Of a stretch of DNA of 35,606 bases, positions 9,119-34,723 are shown piece after piece. Below the pieces are notes generated by a model. The model did no database searches, had not been told where the DNA came from, and was given only the letters and a program-made list of their open reading frames with translations. The stretch lies in the NCBI GenBank assembly GCA_017404725.1, contig JAFRBS010000020.1:1-35606 (forward strand). The letters are read 5' to 3'. The translations under genes were made by a program, and so were the position numbers. Within the stretch, counting starts at the first letter, position 1. The number at the start of each line of letters is the position of its first letter. The DNA comes from Candidatus Saccharimonadota bacterium. GTDB taxonomy: Bacteria; Patescibacteriota; Saccharimonadia; Saccharimonadales; Saccharimonadaceae.

Positions 9119-11989
9119 CTAGCGGATTTTTATGACCTGATCTTCTTGCAAAATATCCTTGTCCGGCATGCTCAGCTCCTCCGCCGGCTTGTGCAGAGCC
9201 TCCGCGACCTCCTCGTCCGGCACGACATCCTCAAATACATCCGGCTCGTCATGGGCTACGGCTGGTTTTGGCTCCGATGCGACGGGTGACCGCCCCTTGG
9301 GACGCGGAACGCCGGAGGCGTACGCGTCGAGGGGTCCCGCCGCCCCCCGAGCCGAAAGGCGAGCGGGGGTGGATGGGCGATGCGACGCGGCAGGACCCGT
9401 CGCCTCAGCGCCCGGAACCAATGGTAGTCCATCATCCCCCAGCTTAATCGGCTCTGACGAGCCCTGAGAGCCAGCATAAGCGCTTTTCTCCTTCCACTTG
9501 TCCAAGAACCCACCTGGCTCTTCAGGAACGCCTTCTGGGGCCTTAGGTGCGCTCTTGGTAGCACCTAACCTCTCATTAATCTCGCGCTCTACCTCTGCTC
9601 TCATCCGCCCATACTTCGTCGCCGAATATAGCTTCAGCGATTCCATCACCTCTGGATTTTCCTTCCCCAGCGGCGGATTCAAAGCCATCGTGAACGGCTT
9701 GGACGGCATGTCAAACATCATTACCGTCGAGACCGCGTGGAAGTTCGGCTGGTTATGTAGATCCTCGGCGTTAAACACTGGTACAAACGCCTTTTCCATC
9801 ATCTCCGCGTCCGTAATACCGATTCTACCGCAGATAATCGTCCCCACGTTACCGAGAATCCCCTCGCGAATCTTATCTGTTAGCTGGGTCATAAACTGGT
9901 TCGCCACCACAAGGTTCAACCGGAACTTCCTAGCCTCGGAAAGAATACTCTCAAAGCTCTCTGTTGCGAAGTTCTGGAACTCGTCCACAAACAGACAGAA
10001 GTCGTTGCGCTCGTCCTCAGGGGTATCTACCCTGGACATCGCCGCCGTCTGGAACTTCATCACGAAAATCATACCTAGAAGCTTCGAGTTCAGCTCACCC
10101 ATCTTACCCTTGGACAAATTCACGAGCAAGATCTTCTTCTGATCCATAATCTCTCTGATGTCAAACCCAGATTTAACCTGACCCATCACGTTTCGCATCA
10201 TCGTATTAGAGAGAAACGGCGACCACTTCGACACCATCCAAGTAATCACCTCGCCGGCATCATTCGACTTCTGTGACGCTGGAAACTCCTTTGTCCAGTA
10301 GTCATAAACCGCCTTATCCGTCACATACTGCAACTTCTCTCTGACGAAATTCGGATCTGTAAAACAGCGTGGAATCTCAATAAAGGTCGCCCCATTCGGA
10401 TCACTCATCAGAAGTAGCGCCGCATTCCTGAACATGTGCTCCATTCTCGGTCCGACAATACCCGTATGACCGGGGTCGTATAGAGAGTAAAGCATGTTAA
10501 TTCCCTCTTGAACAATAAAGTCCTTCTGATCAGGGGAAGAAAACTCAAACATATTCATCCCCATCGGATGCTCAAGATCGCCCGGATCAAAGTAGATCAC
10601 ATCGTCTACCCTCTCTGGTGGAATCATCGCTAGAATCTCCTCACAGACGTCACCGTGCGGATCGATAAAAGCGAACCCGCGCCCTGCCATCACATCCTGA
10701 TAAGCGAGGTTTTTAAGGAGTACCGACTTACCCATACCTGTTGCGCCGATGACGTAAGTGTGACGACGGCGATCCTTCTCCGACAGATAAATCTTCTTCT
10801 TCTGACCCCTGAACTCGTTCACGCCCAGCCATAGCCCTTCGGTCGGCACCTTGGCCGGCCCGTCAACCTGTTTAGTCAACTGGCGCTCAATCTGGGAAGT
10901 CGGTATCGAGCTCTGGGACGGAAGATGGAAAATCGTCGAAAGTTCCATGCTGTTCAAGATACAAGAACGATTGGAAACTGGGAAGATACGGAAGATGTAA
11001 TCCGCGGTCAGTTTATCCATATCTCTTAGGCCGTCGTACTTGAACCCGTTGTTAGCCGGGGAGTCGAACTGTGAAAATGCGCTAACCAGGCCCCCTAGGA
11101 GCGCCTCTGAGCGCGCTTGGTTAGCCGAGCTGGCCACAACCCTGATTAGCGTCTCAAACGCCGGATAGCGCGTCTTACCTTCAATTGCAGCGATTTCCTC
11201 TTGTTGGAGATTCGTAATCGGCTCTTGCCCCTCTGCTTTACTCTTTTCGTGCATCTCTGGCACCTCGAATGGCGCCCGGATGATATCCGCCACCGACTCT
11301 AGTCCTATCCCTGAAAAGCCGCGCTTCTTTTTCCCGTCGCGAATCTCCTGAACTCTCTGAGCTGCTTTCTTGGTCCACCCCTGATCAACCGGTCTAAACA
11401 TCATTTGCATCGCCATCCCCTCCCCTGGCTTGACGCTAGACATTGCGTTTAAAATCGCCCCTGTTGCGTCCCATTTCGACTCCTCGTAAGTCGCAATCGG
11501 ATAGACAAACTCCTTTTTAAGCTCTAGCTCACCCCCGGCGACCCCAGTAATACCACCCTCTTTGCTAAAGATGTTCTCCTCATCAGTTTCCTCCAGGCGC
11601 GCCGTCGGATAAGCCGAAACCACCGCCTGTTTCACCGTCTCTGTTAGAACCGCCGGCACTACCGCGTAGTACTTGACCATCCCGTTGCTCGCCACAATCT
11701 CAAAAGAGATGTGCCTCTGGCCATAAATCTTGGCTTTCCAATCCTTGTTCAGGGTAGAAGCGATGATAGAATACATCACCTGCGCCCCTGAAATCGCCTC
11801 GTTCGTCACGTCGCGCTCATCGCGCCCGCCCCCCTGAATATCGTCGGTCTGCGGCGGCAAATGAATCAGCATCGGTACCATCTTAAGCCCGCGTTCTAAC
11901 TCCTTACCCTCTCTCTGGCGTTTAACGTTAATCACCCAAGCCGCAACCGCAACCAAACCTATAATCAGCAAAAATACTATCAGACCCAT
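9119..11989 (-). CDS. VirD4/TraG-like (HerA-FtsK superfamily) DNA-translocating ATPase
   Basis: 956 aa. One N-terminal transmembrane helix (residues ~2-20) is followed by ~380 residues of periplasm/cytosol-type domain. The ATPase carries Walker A VIGATGMGKS (near 415), the FIDPHGD motif shortly after, Walker B FVDEFQNFATES (near 666), and ANQF. This order matches type IV secretion coupling proteins and CPR type IV secretion DNA-binding proteins. The last ~180 residues are a Pro/Ala/acidic low-complexity tail containing GC-rich hairpin DNA. Likely role: membrane-bound DNA or protein translocation; partners are not in the window. It is the last gene of a three-gene run; AGGGGGG precedes the ATG. 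Confidence 0.88.
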   Translation of the reverse strand: MGLIVFLLIIGLVAVAAWVINVKRQREGKELERGLKMVPMLIHLPPQTDDIQGGGRDERDVTNEAISGAQVMYSIIASTLNKDWKAKIYGQRHISFEIVASNGMVKYYAVVPAVLTETVKQAVVSAYPTARLEETDEENIFSKEGGITGVAGGELELKKEFVYPIATYEESKWDATGAILNAMSSVKPGEGMAMQMMFRPVDQGWTKKAAQRVQEIRDGKKKRGFSGIGLESVADIIRAPFEVPEMHEKSKAEGQEPITNLQQEEIAAIEGKTRYPAFETLIRVVASSANQARSEALLGGLVSAFSQFDSPANNGFKYDGLRDMDKLTADYIFRIFPVSNRSCILNSMELSTIFHLPSQSSIPTSQIERQLTKQVDGPAKVPTEGLWLGVNEFRGQKKKIYLSEKDRRRHTYVIGATGMGKSVLLKNLAYQDVMAGRGFAFIDPHGDVCEEILAMIPPERVDDVIYFDPGDLEHPMGMNMFEFSSPDQKDFIVQEGINMLYSLYDPGHTGIVGPRMEHMFRNAALLLMSDPNGATFIEIPRCFTDPNFVREKLQYVTDKAVYDYWTKEFPASQKSNDAGEVITWMVSKWSPFLSNTMMRNVMGQVKSGFDIREIMDQKKILLVNLSKGKMGELNSKLLGMIFVMKFQTAAMSRVDTPEDERNDFCLFVDEFQNFATESFESILSEARKFRLNLVVANQFMTQLTDKIREGILGNVGTIICGRIGITDAEMMEKAFVPVFNAEDLHNQPNFHAVSTVMMFDMPSKPFTMALNPPLGKENPEVMESLKLYSATKYGRMRAEVEREINERLGATKSAPKAPEGVPEEPGGFLDKWKEKSAYAGSQGSSEPIKLGDDGLPLVPGAEATGPAASHRPSTPARLSARGAAGPLDAYASGVPRPKGRSPVASEPKPAVAHDEPDVFEDVVPDEEVAEALHKPAEELSMPDKDILQEDQVIKIR
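9288..9380. repeat. GC-rich hairpin repeat inside the TraG-like gene
   Basis: A 22-nt block (9288-9309) is identical to 34619-34640 inside pilT. It is followed by a 5-bp hairpin with a GGA loop (ACGCC/GGCGT) and an outer GACGCG/CGCGTC stem, then further C/G-rich inverted sequence up to ~9380. Much richer in GC than the surrounding gene. Confidence 0.7.
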
Positions 11990-13798: not shown

Positions 13799-13953
13799 CC
13801 AAACACTACCTTTCCGAAACATAATGAGATTTAGGCCAGATTTGAGCGCGTAGATTTTATCAACAGATTAATCGCGAAAAACGCCAGTTTTTCCGATTTA
13901 GATGTTGTAAAATCTACTGGCGCTCAAGTCCGTTTCGGAAAGGTAGTGTTTGG
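13799..13953. mobile_element. MITE-like element with perfect 22-bp terminal inverted repeats (IR2)
   Basis: 13799-13820 and 13932-13953 are perfect reverse complements (CCAAACACTACC... and ...GGTAGTGTTTGG). Inner arms (TTGAGCGCGTAGATTTTATC against GTAAAATCTACTGGCGCTCAA) continue the pairing imperfectly. Both ends are flanked by TTTTATGAA in direct orientation, as expected for a target-site duplication. No ORF. A non-autonomous mobile element is the simplest reading; no transposase is in the window. Confidence 0.6.
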
Positions 13954-14025
13954 TTTTATGAAAAGGCAACCAAAAACCCTGTGGAAAACTTTCTGAAAAA
14001 AGTCGAAAAAAGTCCAAAAAAACTA

Positions 14026-14054
14026 TTGACATAAGCTTTTTTCTGCGATATTAT
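14026..14054 (+). promoter_or_regulatory. Strong consensus promoter of a small RNA
   Basis: TTGACA (14026-14031), 17-nt spacer, TATTAT (14049-14054). The only perfect -35 box in the 12.98-14.28 kb gap. The 70 bases before it (13954-14025) show nothing else. Confidence 0.7.
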
Positions 14055-14060
14055 AGAGGT

Positions 14061-14168
14061 AGCTTTTGAATAAAAAAATTATTCAGGGCCAAAAACAAAC
14101 AACATAGCCAAAAACTCCACACTCTTTAGAAAGGCCCGGTTTCCTCGCAGTTAACGGGCCCTTTCTTC
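14061..14168 (+). ncRNA. Candidate small RNA (~105 nt) with terminator
   Basis: Begins with a TGAATAA/TTATTCA hairpin (~14067-14087) and an unpaired A/C-rich middle (CCAAAAACAAACAACATAGC). It ends in a GC-rich hairpin GGCCCG/CGGGCC (14133-14160) followed by CTTTCTTC. No ORF. The A/C-rich single-stranded middle would suit pairing with G/U-rich targets such as ribosome binding sites. Family unknown. Confidence 0.5.
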
Positions 14169-14207
14169 ATCTAAAGCGCCAAACCAGGCGCCATTTTTAT
14201 GCCCGAA

Positions 14208-14945: not shown

Positions 14946-14971
14946 CTCTGGACTTTTTAAGGCGTTTGTGC

Positions 14972-14977
14972 TATAAT
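14972..14977 (+). promoter_or_regulatory. -10 box of tmRNA
   Basis: TGTGCTATAAT ten bases before the tmRNA 5' end. A -35-like TGGACT (14949-14954) at 17 nt lies directly after the preceding terminator. Confidence 0.7.
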
Positions 14978-14986
14978 GTAAAAGTT

Positions 14987-15342
14987 GGGGCTGACAAAGC
15001 TTAGACGGGTCATTAACAGATATCAAGCGTGTCGATTTATACCGTAAGTATAGTTTAACTGCAGAAAACAAAACTGCAAAGCACGTGCTTTACGCACCTG
15101 CTTATGCTTAGATCTACGGATTTAAGCTCGGCCCTCGTGTGATTTCTCATAGCATCGATGGGTTGTCATAGCATGAGAATAGGGGTCCGCCCGACGCACG
15201 GTTCCCCGAAATCTAGTCGCGGCGCCTAGGCGGTCTTGTCTATCTTCCGCCAGGATTTCGCCTTTAAAGAAACAGACTACACACGTAGAAAGATATCCCC
15301 GTGATGATTCGGACGCGGAGGCAGTATCCGCCAGCTCCACCA
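14987..15342 (+). ncRNA. ssrA: tmRNA (ssrA) with tag AENKTAKHVLYAPAYA
   Basis: One-piece tmRNA of 356 nt. The acceptor stem GGGGCTG pairs with CAGCTCC followed by ACCA (15332-15342). The tag reading frame runs 15061-15108 with stop TAG at 15109 and encodes AENKTAKHVLYAPAYA, so the tag ends in AYA rather than the common LAA. CGGACGCGG before the T-arm matches other tmRNAs, but the T-loop is GGCAGTA instead of TTCRANY, and the D-loop part reads AGCTTAGAC instead of GGNTTCGAC. It rescues stalled ribosomes with SmpB. CCA is encoded. Confidence 0.95.
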
Positions 15343-15420
15343 GAGAACGCAAAACGACCAAAGGTCGTTTTTTGTTGTGCTACGCACAACAAGCCGAGCT
15401 TCACTCGGCGCGTTCTCTGG
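15340..15420. repeat. Perfect four-way-junction palindrome at the tmRNA 3' end
   Basis: Outer stem CCAGAGAACGC (15340-15350) with GCGTTCTCTGG (15410-15420) encloses three hairpins with no unpaired base between them. They are AAAACGACC-AAA-GGTCGTTTT (15351-15371), TTGTTGTGC-TAC-GCACAACAA (15372-15392) and GCCGAG-CTTCA-CTCGGC (15393-15409). The first hairpin followed by T could end tmRNA transcription. The outer stem uses the CCA of tmRNA. Confidence 0.8.
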
Positions 15421-15487
15421 AAAGCCAGGAAAAATACCCCCTCCGCCCCCGTTTCAGTATTTTTTACAACACTTGGCAAAAAACCTC

Positions 15488-15524: not shown

Positions 15525-17849
15525 ATGATGAAAAATGTACCCCCAACCCCCGACCTAGAGGTTACACTAGGAACCAAGCCCTTAAGTTTCGCGCCAGACG
15601 GCACGCCAGAGTTCGTCAAGCGTGGCACCAAACAAACTGAGCTAAAAAACACCGACAACTCTAAATCTGCCAGAGAGAGCCGCTTTAAGCAGTTCATCGA
15701 CAGTTTAAGATCTAGCGACGATCCTATTGTCCAAAAATTTTATGAGCTCGGCATAAAAAGTCGCACTAGCGCAGTAATCGCCGAACTAACAGAGTGGGAA
15801 GCTGAATATTATCGCGATAAAACCGGCTTAAACATCGAAGACGGCGCACAATTCGTCCTGCGGATCAATACCGTTCGTCACGAGGACAACAGCGGCCATC
15901 TAACTGGAATTAGAAGAAGTGCAGAACAAAAAACCGGCTATTTTATAGATGCGAACCCCCTTACAAAAACCGACATCTCTATGCTGGGCCGAGTGCTAAA
16001 AACGCCAGATTCCATTAGATATTGCGGAAAGGGCCGCAAAGAGCGGCAAAAATTAGTGATCCAGAAGCGTATAAACGACAAAGCTCGCATCGTTATAGAG
16101 ATGATCAGAGATGCGGACGAGCTAGAGATTGTAGACTATTACAAAATAAATAAAGTTCCCCAAACGGAGAACTTTACCGACAGTCGGATTGCTCCTCAGT
16201 CTGCGGCAAGTGCCCATATTTCAATGGGTTATACGCGCAAAGCGAACTTGCCTGACCCTTCCATTATAGCACAACCAGACACCTCTGTCAATTCTAAAAT
16301 CTCCAAAGTCACCTCTTTCGTTCCCCTCGGCGCCACCGCCGCCAAAATCGAGGTCGAGGGCGACAGCTCCGAAGGTCTGCCCAGTTTCAACCTGGTCGGC
16401 CTCGCCAGTAAAACTGTCTGCGAGTCCAGAGAACGTGTCAGAAGCGCCTTGAGGTCGTCCGGCTTCTCCTTCCCAAGAAATCGGATTACTATTTCCCTCG
16501 CCCCAGCCGAGCTAAGTAAAGACGGCCCCCATCTCGACCTGCCGATCGCCCTCTCGGTCCTAGTCTTAAGCGGCCAACTCCGAAAATCCGACCTAAAAAA
16601 CGCCACCTTCTTCGGTGAGCTTTCCCTGGAAGGCAACCTCCGCCCAGTTCGCGGCATTATTAACCTCGTCGAGGCCGCCAAAGAGGCTGGCATCAAAAAA
16701 ATCTTCCTCCCAGAGGAAAATTGTGCCGCCGCCAGCCTGATTAAAGGAGTCAGACTCTACGGGGTCAAAAACCTAGATCAGCTTTACCGCCATTTAACAG
16801 CCCAAGATCTCATCAAACCCATATGCCCGCAAACCGCTCAACTAGCCCAGCGCACCAAAACCCACCCGAGTATCCGCTCTAATTCCCCCTCAGAGGCCTC
16901 AGAAGCCCCAGAAACGCCCGAACTAACCTTTAGCGTGATAAAAGGCCAATCACGCGCTAAACGTGCCCTAGCCATCGCTATTGCCGGCAGACACAATATT
17001 CTCTTAGAGGGTCCACCCGGCGCGGGTAAAACTATGCTGGCGAAGGCCGCCGCCGATTTGCTCCCACCCCTGACCGATCAGGAGAAGATTACCGTTACGA
17101 AACTCCATTCCCTGAAAACTCCAGGCAAGATCTATGAAAAGCCACCCTTTCGCGCTCCCCACCACGCTTCCAGCCCCGCCTCTGTAATCGGCGGCGGCCA
17201 CGACGTCTTCCCTGGCGAAATCTCTCTGGCGCATAAAGGCATCCTCTTTTTGGACGAATTCCCTGAATTTCCCCGAAATATCCTCGAAGCTCTGCGCCAA
17301 CCCCTGGAAGATCGCCAGGTCACTATCTCTCGCGCCAACCTGAAAGTCACTTACCCCGCTGATTTTATGCTGATTGCCACTATGAACCCCTGTCCTTGCG
17401 GCTATCTGGGCGACCCGAACCACCCCTGTTCCTGCACCGATCATCAGATCCAAACCTACCAAAAACGCATCTCTGGTCCCCTTCTAGACCGTATCGACCT
17501 CTATGTCGAGGTCAGACAACAAAGCCCGACCAACCTGTTAGAAGACGACGAGCAGGCCGCCGAGAATAGTCTAAAAACCGCCCTAGAAACCGCTATAAAC
17601 CGCCAAGCCGAGCGCAAAAAACGCAATGCCCATCTTACCGCCACCGACCTCCGCGACCGTGCCTGCCTCAAAAAACCCGCCAAAGACCTCTTAAACACCG
17701 CCGCTGATAAGCTTGCTCTCTCCGCTAGAAGCTATCTAAAAGTCCTCCGCGTCGCCCGCACCATCGCCGACCTTGAAGACAAAACCGAAATCTCTGAGGA
17801 ACATATCTCCGAGGCCCTTTCTTTCCGAAAAACCGAAAAAACCTTATAA
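15525..17849 (+). CDS. comM: ComM-like AAA+ (Mg-chelatase family) protein fused to a nuclease-toxin-like N-terminal region
   Basis: 774 aa from ATG 15525, against ~500-510 for normal ComM. Residues ~259-774 are a complete ComM: KVTSFVPLGATAAKIEVEG, GLPSFNLVGL and ESRERVRSAL at its start, Walker A GPPGAGKTMLAKA, Walker B ILFLDEFPEF, the CPCG zinc-like motif, and the C-terminal Mg-chelatase domain. Residues ~1-258 are extra. In them, LGRVLKTPDSI followed by KLVIQKRI and IVIEMIRDADELEIVDYYKI looks like a BECR-fold (RelE/EndoU-like, PBECR) domain of phage MuF-type proteins; that call is tentative. ComM promotes branch migration when taken-up DNA is integrated. No Met lies at the expected ComM start; the nearest internal ATG is 16223. 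Confidence 0.85.
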   Translation: MMKNVPPTPDLEVTLGTKPLSFAPDGTPEFVKRGTKQTELKNTDNSKSARESRFKQFIDSLRSSDDPIVQKFYELGIKSRTSAVIAELTEWEAEYYRDKTGLNIEDGAQFVLRINTVRHEDNSGHLTGIRRSAEQKTGYFIDANPLTKTDISMLGRVLKTPDSIRYCGKGRKERQKLVIQKRINDKARIVIEMIRDADELEIVDYYKINKVPQTENFTDSRIAPQSAASAHISMGYTRKANLPDPSIIAQPDTSVNSKISKVTSFVPLGATAAKIEVEGDSSEGLPSFNLVGLASKTVCESRERVRSALRSSGFSFPRNRITISLAPAELSKDGPHLDLPIALSVLVLSGQLRKSDLKNATFFGELSLEGNLRPVRGIINLVEAAKEAGIKKIFLPEENCAAASLIKGVRLYGVKNLDQLYRHLTAQDLIKPICPQTAQLAQRTKTHPSIRSNSPSEASEAPETPELTFSVIKGQSRAKRALAIAIAGRHNILLEGPPGAGKTMLAKAAADLLPPLTDQEKITVTKLHSLKTPGKIYEKPPFRAPHHASSPASVIGGGHDVFPGEISLAHKGILFLDEFPEFPRNILEALRQPLEDRQVTISRANLKVTYPADFMLIATMNPCPCGYLGDPNHPCSCTDHQIQTYQKRISGPLLDRIDLYVEVRQQSPTNLLEDDEQAAENSLKTALETAINRQAERKKRNAHLTATDLRDRACLKKPAKDLLNTAADKLALSARSYLKVLRVARTIADLEDKTEISEEHISEALSFRKTEKTL

Positions 17850-33439: not shown

Positions 33440-34723
33440 CTAGCCTCTTGATAATCTCTCAAACTCTGCCATATCAACTGCAAATTCACGTGCATCATCG
33501 TGAGTAATTACGCCAGACTGAACCAACTTAACCAAGGTTCTATCCATCGTCTGCATACCCTGAGAGACGCCAGTCTGAATCGCTGTGTCGATTTGGTGTG
33601 TCTTACCATCGCGGATCAAAGCCTTAATCGCTGGGTTAGTGATCATAATCTCTGCCGCCGCAACGCGTCCGCCACCAATCGCCGGAACTAAACGTTGGGC
33701 ACAAACCGCCTGAAGAACGCTCGCTAGCTGAATTCTAATCTGTTGCTGCTGGTGCGCCGGGAAAACATCAACCATACGATCGATCGACTGCGCCGCCGAG
33801 TTTGTATGAAGCGTACCGAAGACCAGGTGACCAGTCTCCGCGACCGTAATCGCCGCCTGGATCGTCTCGAGATCGCGCATCTCACCAATCAGTACAACAT
33901 CCGGATCTTCACGAAGCGCGCTTTTAAGCGCCCGCGAGAACGAATAAGTATCGTAATGGACTTCCCTCTGCGCGACAAGCGCCTTCTTCGACTGATAAGT
34001 AAACTCGATCGGATCCTCAATCGTCAAGATATGAACCGCTTTCGTCTGGTTAATTTTCTCAAGCAGCGCCGCCAAAGTCGTAGATTTACCAGAGCCAGTC
34101 GGACCAGTAACTAGAACTAAACCGCGTGGAAATTCAGTAAATTTCTCGACCACTGCCGGAAGACCTAGGTCTTGGCAAGACAAAATCTTATCTGGAATCA
34201 AACGCAGTGCCGCAGCTAGGTTTCCCATCTCTTGGAAAGCATTAACACGGAAACGTCCGAGGCTGCCGAACGCAAACGAATAATCAAACTCCTTGTCTTT
34301 CGACAAAACCTGCTGCTGTTCCGAATCCATCGTCGAGAAAATCATTCTCTCCGCATCCGACTCCGTCACAACCGGCGTATTCGGAATTGGCCGAAGTACG
34401 CCATCGACGCGTAACATCGGTTGAAGCCCAACCTGAATATGCAGGTCCGAAGCCTTCGCCCGTACACACTCCTCGAGTAAGTTTTCCATCTTCAAAGCCA
34501 TCTGTCCGCCCGAAGCAGGAGCCGGTGCTGGAGCAGCTGGAGCAGGCGTAGCGGGTGACGCAACTGGGGGGACCCCCGCGGATCCGCCTAACGCGGACTC
34601 TGTGGGGGAACCTGTTGCGACCGCCCCTTGGGACGCGGAAGACCGAAGGTCTACAGGACCCGCTACGGCTGCGCCGGCTGTATTAGGTATTGTTGGTGTT
34701 GTCATTTGCCCACTATTTTCCAT
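33440..34723 (-). CDS. pilT: Type IV pilus retraction ATPase PilT
   Basis: 427 aa, longer than usual (~345-370) because of a ~75-residue Ala/Pro/Gly-rich N-terminal linker. Walker A GPTGSGKST (near 208), ILTIEDPIEF Asp box, EDPDVVLIGEMRD Walker B and GHLVFGTLHTNSA His box are intact. ASDLHIQVG and QGMQTMDRTLVKL place it with PilT rather than PilB. The linker DNA holds GC-rich hairpins, one shared with the TraG-like gene. ATG lies 6 nt after TATAAT (leaderless). Powers pilus retraction for attachment and DNA uptake. Confidence 0.95.
   Translation of the reverse strand: MENSGQMTTPTIPNTAGAAVAGPVDLRSSASQGAVATGSPTESALGGSAGVPPVASPATPAPAAPAPAPASGGQMALKMENLLEECVRAKASDLHIQVGLQPMLRVDGVLRPIPNTPVVTESDAERMIFSTMDSEQQQVLSKDKEFDYSFAFGSLGRFRVNAFQEMGNLAAALRLIPDKILSCQDLGLPAVVEKFTEFPRGLVLVTGPTGSGKSTTLAALLEKINQTKAVHILTIEDPIEFTYQSKKALVAQREVHYDTYSFSRALKSALREDPDVVLIGEMRDLETIQAAITVAETGHLVFGTLHTNSAAQSIDRMVDVFPAHQQQQIRIQLASVLQAVCAQRLVPAIGGGRVAAAEIMITNPAIKALIRDGKTHQIDTAIQTGVSQGMQTMDRTLVKLVQSGVITHDDAREFAVDMAEFERLSRG
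34565..34660. repeat. GC-rich hairpin repeats inside pilT linker
   Basis: 34619-34640 is identical to 9288-9309. It is followed by AGACC-GAA-GGTCT (34640-34652). Just upstream lies a second palindrome, CCCCC...TCCGC/GCGGA...GGGGG (34566-34608). The shared block is read in a different codon phase here than in the TraG-like gene. Confidence 0.7.

Follow-up and report, generated by a model that had tools for sequence, protein, structure and literature searches.

The window, by which we mean the whole 35,606-nt stretch analysed here, is contig C9 of a Saccharibacteria genome of 739 kb in 32 contigs (G000). It carries a tmRNA gene preceded by a promoter-like site; Infernal called the gene, and ARAGORN did not call it in this window. 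The next gene on the forward strand starts near 15525 and, as read from its translation, presumably encodes a ComM/YifB-type chelatase. At the 3' end of the tmRNA lies a palindrome that reads CCAGAGAACGC / AAAACGACC-AAA-GGTCGTTTT / TTGTTGTGC-TAC-GCACAACAA / GCCGAG-CTTCA-CTCGGC / GCGTTCTCTGG. These five parts (11 + 21 + 21 + 17 + 11 = 81 nt, 15340-15420) form an 11-bp outer stem around hairpins of 9, 9 and 6 bp, with perfect Watson-Crick pairing in every stem and zero unpaired bases at the four-way junction, exactly as the initial annotation had described. Its placing of the start of the outer stem within the tmRNA CCA also holds, given that the RF00023 match ends at 15342 and the stem starts at 15340. 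No Rfam family scored above its gathering threshold over 15343-15420. Folded as single-strand DNA, 15330-15440 reached -38.5 kcal/mol, compared with a mean of -12.3 for shuffled sequences (z = -11.4, with 0 of 200 shuffles as low), and the RNA fold of this copy is very stable.

Table 1. Features of the tmRNA locus in the window and of the class A rods elsewhere in the genome (L numbers denote stretches of G000)
Feature	Position	Strand	Remarks
Promoter-like site of tmRNA	14949-14977		
tmRNA (ssrA)	14987..15342	+	RF00023, Infernal 96.4 bits over the full model; encoded CCA at 15340-15342
Outer clamp stem, 5' arm CCAGAGAACGC	15340..15350	+	Starts inside the tmRNA CCA; same position in nearly all relatives' copies
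Hairpin 1, AAAACGACC-AAA-GGTCGTTTT	15351..15371	+	Predicted forward intrinsic terminator (terminator scan)
Hairpin 2, TTGTTGTGC-TAC-GCACAACAA	15372..15392	+	Pairs the T-rich tail of the forward terminator with the complement of that of the reverse one
Hairpin 3, minus-strand GCCGAG-TGAAG-CTCGGC then TTGTTGTG	15393..15409	-	Predicted reverse intrinsic terminator (terminator scan)
Outer clamp stem, 3' arm GCGTTCTCTGG	15410..15420	+	Terminal TGG faces CCA
AAAGCCAGGAAAAATACC, candidate rod-domain remnant	15421..15438	+	Position and ends as in relatives' elements
Class A rod	L167:6800-6915		
Class A rod	L164:3592-3710		
Class A rod	L159:712-831		
Class A rod	L168:9901-9985		
Class A rod	L152:6935-7049		
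Class A rod	L152:13723-13838		
Class A rod	L194:17873-17991		

An exact-stem scan covering 723 kb of G000 identified two cloverleaves, compared with 0 and 0 in order-1 shuffles: the tmRNA copy and a second at C7:45001-45076. The latter follows the same plan (an 8-bp clamp and hairpins of 8, 11 and 6 bp), shows no sequence likeness to the tmRNA copy and lies flush against the CCA of tRNA-Pro(tgg), 3' of which tandem units are present. Most tRNA genes of G000 are without a cloverleaf. DNA similarity searches with the 111-bp region against phages, its own genome and 99 genomes of the genus returned no further copy, and the cloverleaf family is thus invisible at the level of sequence. MAFFT aligned the two G000 cloverleaves out of structural register, and we therefore based the first cloverleaf model on a single copy.

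This single-copy covariance model (R2), made from the tmRNA cloverleaf, matched five relatives in the genus, all at tRNA 3' ends: tRNA-Pro (in G133), tRNA-Ile, tRNA-Met, tRNA-Val and a contig edge 3' of a tRNA end. In each case a second hairpin follows the cloverleaf; in four of the five it is a rod with conserved AAGCGA...TTAGAGCG, and the element ends in TACCA. With a bipartite covariance model of cloverleaf plus rod (R3), 19 of the 170 genus genomes proved to carry such elements, about 30 in all. Of 198 genomes of the order it matched two, both inside the genus, and no cloverleaf element was found outside the genus in that sample. The full unit, of about 130-145 nt, consists of the cloverleaf, TGG and a rod hairpin with conserved internal-loop sequences, is bounded by two CCA trinucleotides and closes with TACCA. 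All 23 copies scoring above 57 bits start at a CCA, which belongs to a tRNA or, in one case, to a duplicated fragment of a tRNA 3' end, and the TACCA terminus is present in 23 of 26 elements; R3 was trained on CCA...TACCA elements, so these boundary counts are not fully independent of the model, whereas adjacency to tRNA genes is. The outer stem and three hairpins could be parsed in 22 of 26 copies. Hosts of the copies above 57 bits are tRNA-Met, Val(tac), Val(gac), Ile(gat), Ile(tat), Pro(tgg), Pro(ggg), Lys, Ala(cgc), Glu(ttc), Glu(ctc) and Leu(caa), to which weaker R3 matches add tRNA-Phe and tmRNA.

The tmRNA copy itself scored 43 bits with R3, because its rod is reduced to AAAGCCAGGAAAAATACC. 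Full rods in the relatives' elements have the pattern AAAGCCGGC-AAGCGATA...TTAGAGCG-GCCGGCTTACCA, and from its position and ends we interpret AAAGCCAGGAAAAATACC as the probable remnant of a decayed rod, the rod itself being gone. The genomes compared are largely metagenome assemblies; those relatives that the rod pattern matched bear the name Candidatus Saccharibacteria, and several come from goat duodenum or jejunum. We conclude that the tmRNA cloverleaf is one copy of a dispersed palindromic family located at the CCA ends of tRNA and tmRNA genes in one genus of gut Saccharibacteria. Apparently this family is undescribed so far: the open-access literature yielded no known palindrome family that is CCA-anchored or defined by its fold, and an earlier description elsewhere is possible.

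The fold is maintained while the sequence changes. Across the 23 copies, in an alignment that was fitted to the model and hence leans toward it, 94.4% of cells are paired and 43 of 52 pairs have changed on both sides. The covariation score of these copies is 0.689, compared with 0.159 in shuffles (0 of 500 as high), and sliding the partners by one column lowers pairing to about 45%. A MAFFT alignment of five sequences, from which its structure was also derived, points in the same direction (21 of 53 pairs; 0 of 500 shuffles). The cells of the cloverleaf domain comprise 690 Watson-Crick, 13 G-T, 8 A-C and 12 other combinations, a strict Watson-Crick share of about 95%; over all cells there are 17 G-T against 1,065 Watson-Crick. 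RNA helices are expected to tolerate many more G-U pairs. The scarcity of G-T pairs, unlike the usual RNA helix, points to the DNA strand as the folding molecule and suggests a constraint or an origin at the level of DNA.

Comparison of 131 distinct tmRNA 3' flanks gathered from the genus and the order revealed the CCA-clamped three-hairpin cloverleaf in one flank, that of G000, and its absence from the other 130. Two other flanks count three hairpins, but their folds are loose and AT-rich and the outer stem has only 7 bp; in many relatives simple terminators occupy the slot. The initial annotation had reasoned that the same structure in all relatives, with no other genomic copies, would favour a simple processing or terminator role for the tmRNA; the opposite was found on both counts. 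In the nearest relative, the sister species G133, the tmRNA is 79% identical and is followed by an ordinary terminator instead of the cloverleaf, with homology to the G000 gene stopping at the CCA. Together with its promoter, the G133 tmRNA lies in inverted orientation with respect to the downstream gene and to a hairpin region conserved upstream; because of this inversion the downstream flanks are not alignable, and no exact empty site for the tmRNA copy can be read from them. The region at 14020-14175 of the window, which holds a promoter-like sequence (TTGACA..TATTAT), AACTCCACACTC and a hairpin with GGTTTCCTCGCAGTTAAC, is conserved: much of the genus has it close to the tmRNA, in any of several orientations to it, and it is perhaps a small RNA gene.

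We infer mobility from the comparison of genomes. Copies occur at non-homologous sites of one genome, both in G000 (tmRNA and tRNA-Pro) and in G191, where four of five tRNA sites carry related cloverleaves. Within G191, tRNA-Leu(caa) and tRNA-Val(gac) carry cloverleaves of 93% identity but rods of 71%, with related cloverleaves also at tRNA-Ile and tRNA-Ala, and at tRNA-Ile(gat) the rods of G111 and G165 are 98% identical and the cloverleaves 62%. Given these discordant identities, cloverleaves and rods have separate histories, and the cloverleaves act as CCA-TGG cassettes. At tRNA-Ile(tat), G192 has one complete CCA-to-CCA unit more than G111, and the downstream DNA is the same; at tRNA-Val(tac), an element is present in G133 and none in G000, with 84% identity in the upstream DNA. 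The tmRNA copy shares 26 of 28 nt (arm end, hairpin 1 and T-run) with the tRNA-Val element of G164, and its outer arm CCAGAGAAC with the tRNA-Ile element of G165. Gene conversion between copies, rather than transposition, could explain part of the near-identity within genomes.

Among the suggestions of the initial annotation (a mobile palindromic element at the tmRNA end, a protein-bound cruciform or a processing signal), the mobile element fits best, given its recurrence at tRNA CCA ends; its movement would be the work of an enzyme that was not found, and no transposase or recombinase was linked to the cloverleaf element. An IS200/IS605-type Y1 transposase (PF01797) is absent from G000, for which we rejected it as the partner enzyme, and is present in only 8 of the 170 genomes of the genus. 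Viral contigs contain no match to the rod pattern, and we discarded a viral origin; 11 of the 15 matching stretches in genome contigs belong to Saccharibacteria, and by a rough estimate the other four do not exceed what chance would give.

The terminator scan predicted one site on each strand (15351-15371 on the plus strand and 15409-15393 on the minus strand), each a G+C-containing stem followed by a T-run. On the plus strand, the last four stem pairs of hairpin 1 are A-T, and its TTGTTGTG tail has the T-run TTTTTT; the minus-strand T-run of the tmRNA copy is weaker than in most relatives. In 22 copies there are on average 6.1 T among the 9 positions after hairpin 1 and 5.1 A among the 9 before hairpin 3. 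The cloverleaf probably doubles, by these predictions, as a two-way intrinsic terminator in which hairpin 1 would act forward, hairpin 3 in reverse, and hairpin 2 would be the opposing T-runs paired with each other. A back-to-back terminator with paired T-runs explains the three hairpins, contrary to the earlier view that a terminator needs only the first of them. The CCA clamp, the TGG, the rod with its fixed loops and the TACCA end are not accounted for by termination, and suggest an element that docks at the CCA.

From these sequence comparisons, we regard a CCA-anchored, exchangeable palindromic element that serves as a two-way terminator as the best reading and a fairly likely one. Units would be inserted or swapped at the CCA as cassettes, moved by a factor that would recognize the folded DNA and not its sequence, and they would persist harmlessly because the host gene, tRNA or tmRNA, would gain from the cloverleaf an intrinsic terminator that works in both directions. 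A more specific version, which we entertain only tentatively, is that of a DNA cassette selected for its shape, a CCA-TGG four-way-junction cloverleaf that an enzyme would read by its fold and would insert or exchange separately from the rod, with the universal CCA end of tRNAs for docking. The terminator-like sites on both strands, the T-rich and A-rich positions flanking the hairpins in 22 copies, and the simple terminators that fill the same slot in many relatives' tmRNA flanks would be expected of a two-way terminator and nothing else, built in place without any movement by local selection on sense and antisense termination and homogenized by gene conversion. We consider this unlikely, as it leaves unexplained a clamp stem ending precisely at CCA/TGG, the conserved loops of the rod, the TACCA ends, the tandem units that run from CCA to CCA and the restriction to tRNA and tmRNA genes.

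A transcribed cloverleaf that keeps the CCA in a nuclease-recognized stem, as a structure for tRNA or tmRNA 3' processing or RNA stability, would fit the pairing of the CCA in nearly all copies and the stable RNA fold of the tmRNA copy. It is, however, very unlikely: the T-run of hairpin 1 should stop transcription before hairpins 2 and 3 and the rod, G-U pairs are rare, and most tRNA genes of G000 do without a cloverleaf. Even less probable are purely mutational palindromes, made and corrected again and again by template switching during replication near tRNA genes, a process that would involve neither selection nor an element. Palindromes whose perfect arms differ from copy to copy are unusually common in G000, and the cloverleaf cells are almost strictly Watson-Crick, but undirected mutation would hardly produce the same division into four parts, the 3-nt loops and the conserved loops of the rod at different tRNA genes in different species.

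We compared the family with known systems. Passages of two accounts (PMC8266576, PMC6006769) describe REP/BIME palindromes as small, extragenic and gene-free, recognized as folded DNA and probably mobilized in trans; REPs measure 20-40 bp, carry a GTAG or CGTC tag and have a possible role in termination (PMC3733652). The cloverleaf family resembles REP/BIME with TnpA-REP (RAYT) in being small, palindromic and gene-free and in its possible termination role. It differs in size (81 nt, or 130-145 nt for the full unit), in combining a cloverleaf with a rod, in the freedom of its stem sequences and in its location at the tRNA CCA; neither tag forms a conserved column, and G000 is without a Y1 (HUH) transposase. 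Of the traits of a non-autonomous IS200/IS605 derivative, hairpins and a fixed CCA junction are seen, and PF01797 is missing from G000. The palindromic elements of Rickettsia (RPE) and Wolbachia, of about 100-150 bp, are dispersed in reduced, host-associated genomes (PMC3767692), a likeness in both size and setting. RPEs are, however, families defined by sequence and often lie inside ORFs, whereas the cloverleaf family is defined by its fold, its stems vary almost freely, and it lies at tRNA and tmRNA CCA ends. Mitochondrial repetitive hairpin-forming and double-hairpin elements are alike in structure, divergent in sequence and scattered, according to part of one source (PMC2800124); these are organellar, and that part of the account mentions neither anchoring at a CCA nor a plan for two-way termination. 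Bidirectional intrinsic terminators share the stem and T-run on each strand; the cloverleaf departs from ordinary back-to-back terminators in that its opposing T-runs pair as the middle hairpin and its clamp includes the CCA of the gene.

Other palindrome families occur in the genome. Class A rods (model R1) are present in 97 of 170 genomes of the genus, with up to 19 per genome and 7 in G000 (Table 1). They have the form ATCT...AATCT with a conserved TTCGCTC/GCGCTTC loop, show compensatory change in 28 of 41 pairs (8 sequences), and lie at tRNA or tmRNA CCA ends or in terminator loops after protein genes. They share the slot of the cloverleaf family, but several sit inside intrinsic terminators of protein genes, and we therefore treat them as a separate family. 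We also rejected the idea that the tmRNA element could fold alternatively into a class A rod, since hairpins 1 and 3 of that copy are not homologous to each other. A further type of element flush with the CCA, CCACGGTAG[GA]AAGCGAG...GCGAGCTGACGCCCCGTG...TACCA, is found at L150:7574, L182:11061 and L194:4411, where its hosts are tRNA-Val(cac), tRNA-Glu(ctc) and a tRNA-Arg-like 3' end, with the CCA...TACCA frame of the cloverleaf family.

Two palindromes of the window lie inside ORFs (34567-34640 and 9293-9375), with cores GGGGGACCCCC... and CGTCCCAAGGGG, close or nested, and recall the Rickettsia elements. The former is at the N-terminus of the ORF at 33440-34723 on the minus strand, which we take from its translation to be a PilT-like ATPase, and the latter at the C-terminus of a 956-aa ORF (9119-11989, minus strand), presumably, again from its translation, a type IV secretion ATPase. 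If one mismatch is allowed, the core CGTCCCAAGGGG occurs 22 times in G000, at sites including L155:5049, L172:13776, L174:16783 and L188:18368, and most copies have perfect arms of their own. At four tRNA genes (Trp, Ala, Val and Asp) it has the intact tRNA on one side and a duplicate of the tRNA 3' end on the other, and its arms are tRNA sequence. A family CGAAGGnCCTAAGACTTGGCC...CGGCCCGGAGCGGCCCGAG with arms of about 20-26 bp is found at L155:9202, L188:258, L147:2479, L157:12762 and L157:13665; two of these copies hold the CGTCCCAAGGGG core within their loop, a sign that palindrome loops may receive insertions. The long palindrome at 13831-13940 of the window belongs to another family, GATTTGAGCGCGTA...TACTGGCGCTCAAGTCC, which G000 also carries at L177:9963 and L181:16982.

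If our reading is correct, the cloverleaf family would be an exchangeable or mobile element in which the fold is selected and almost no sequence, and which ordinary repeat finders would hence miss. The CCA end of a tRNA would be a safe harbour for such an element, and the supply of a terminator may pay for its place. The tRNA trailers of this group of Saccharibacteria would often be inserted elements, a warning to anyone interpreting them, and about 30 natural variants are available for asking which enzyme recognizes folded DNA in these minimal genomes.
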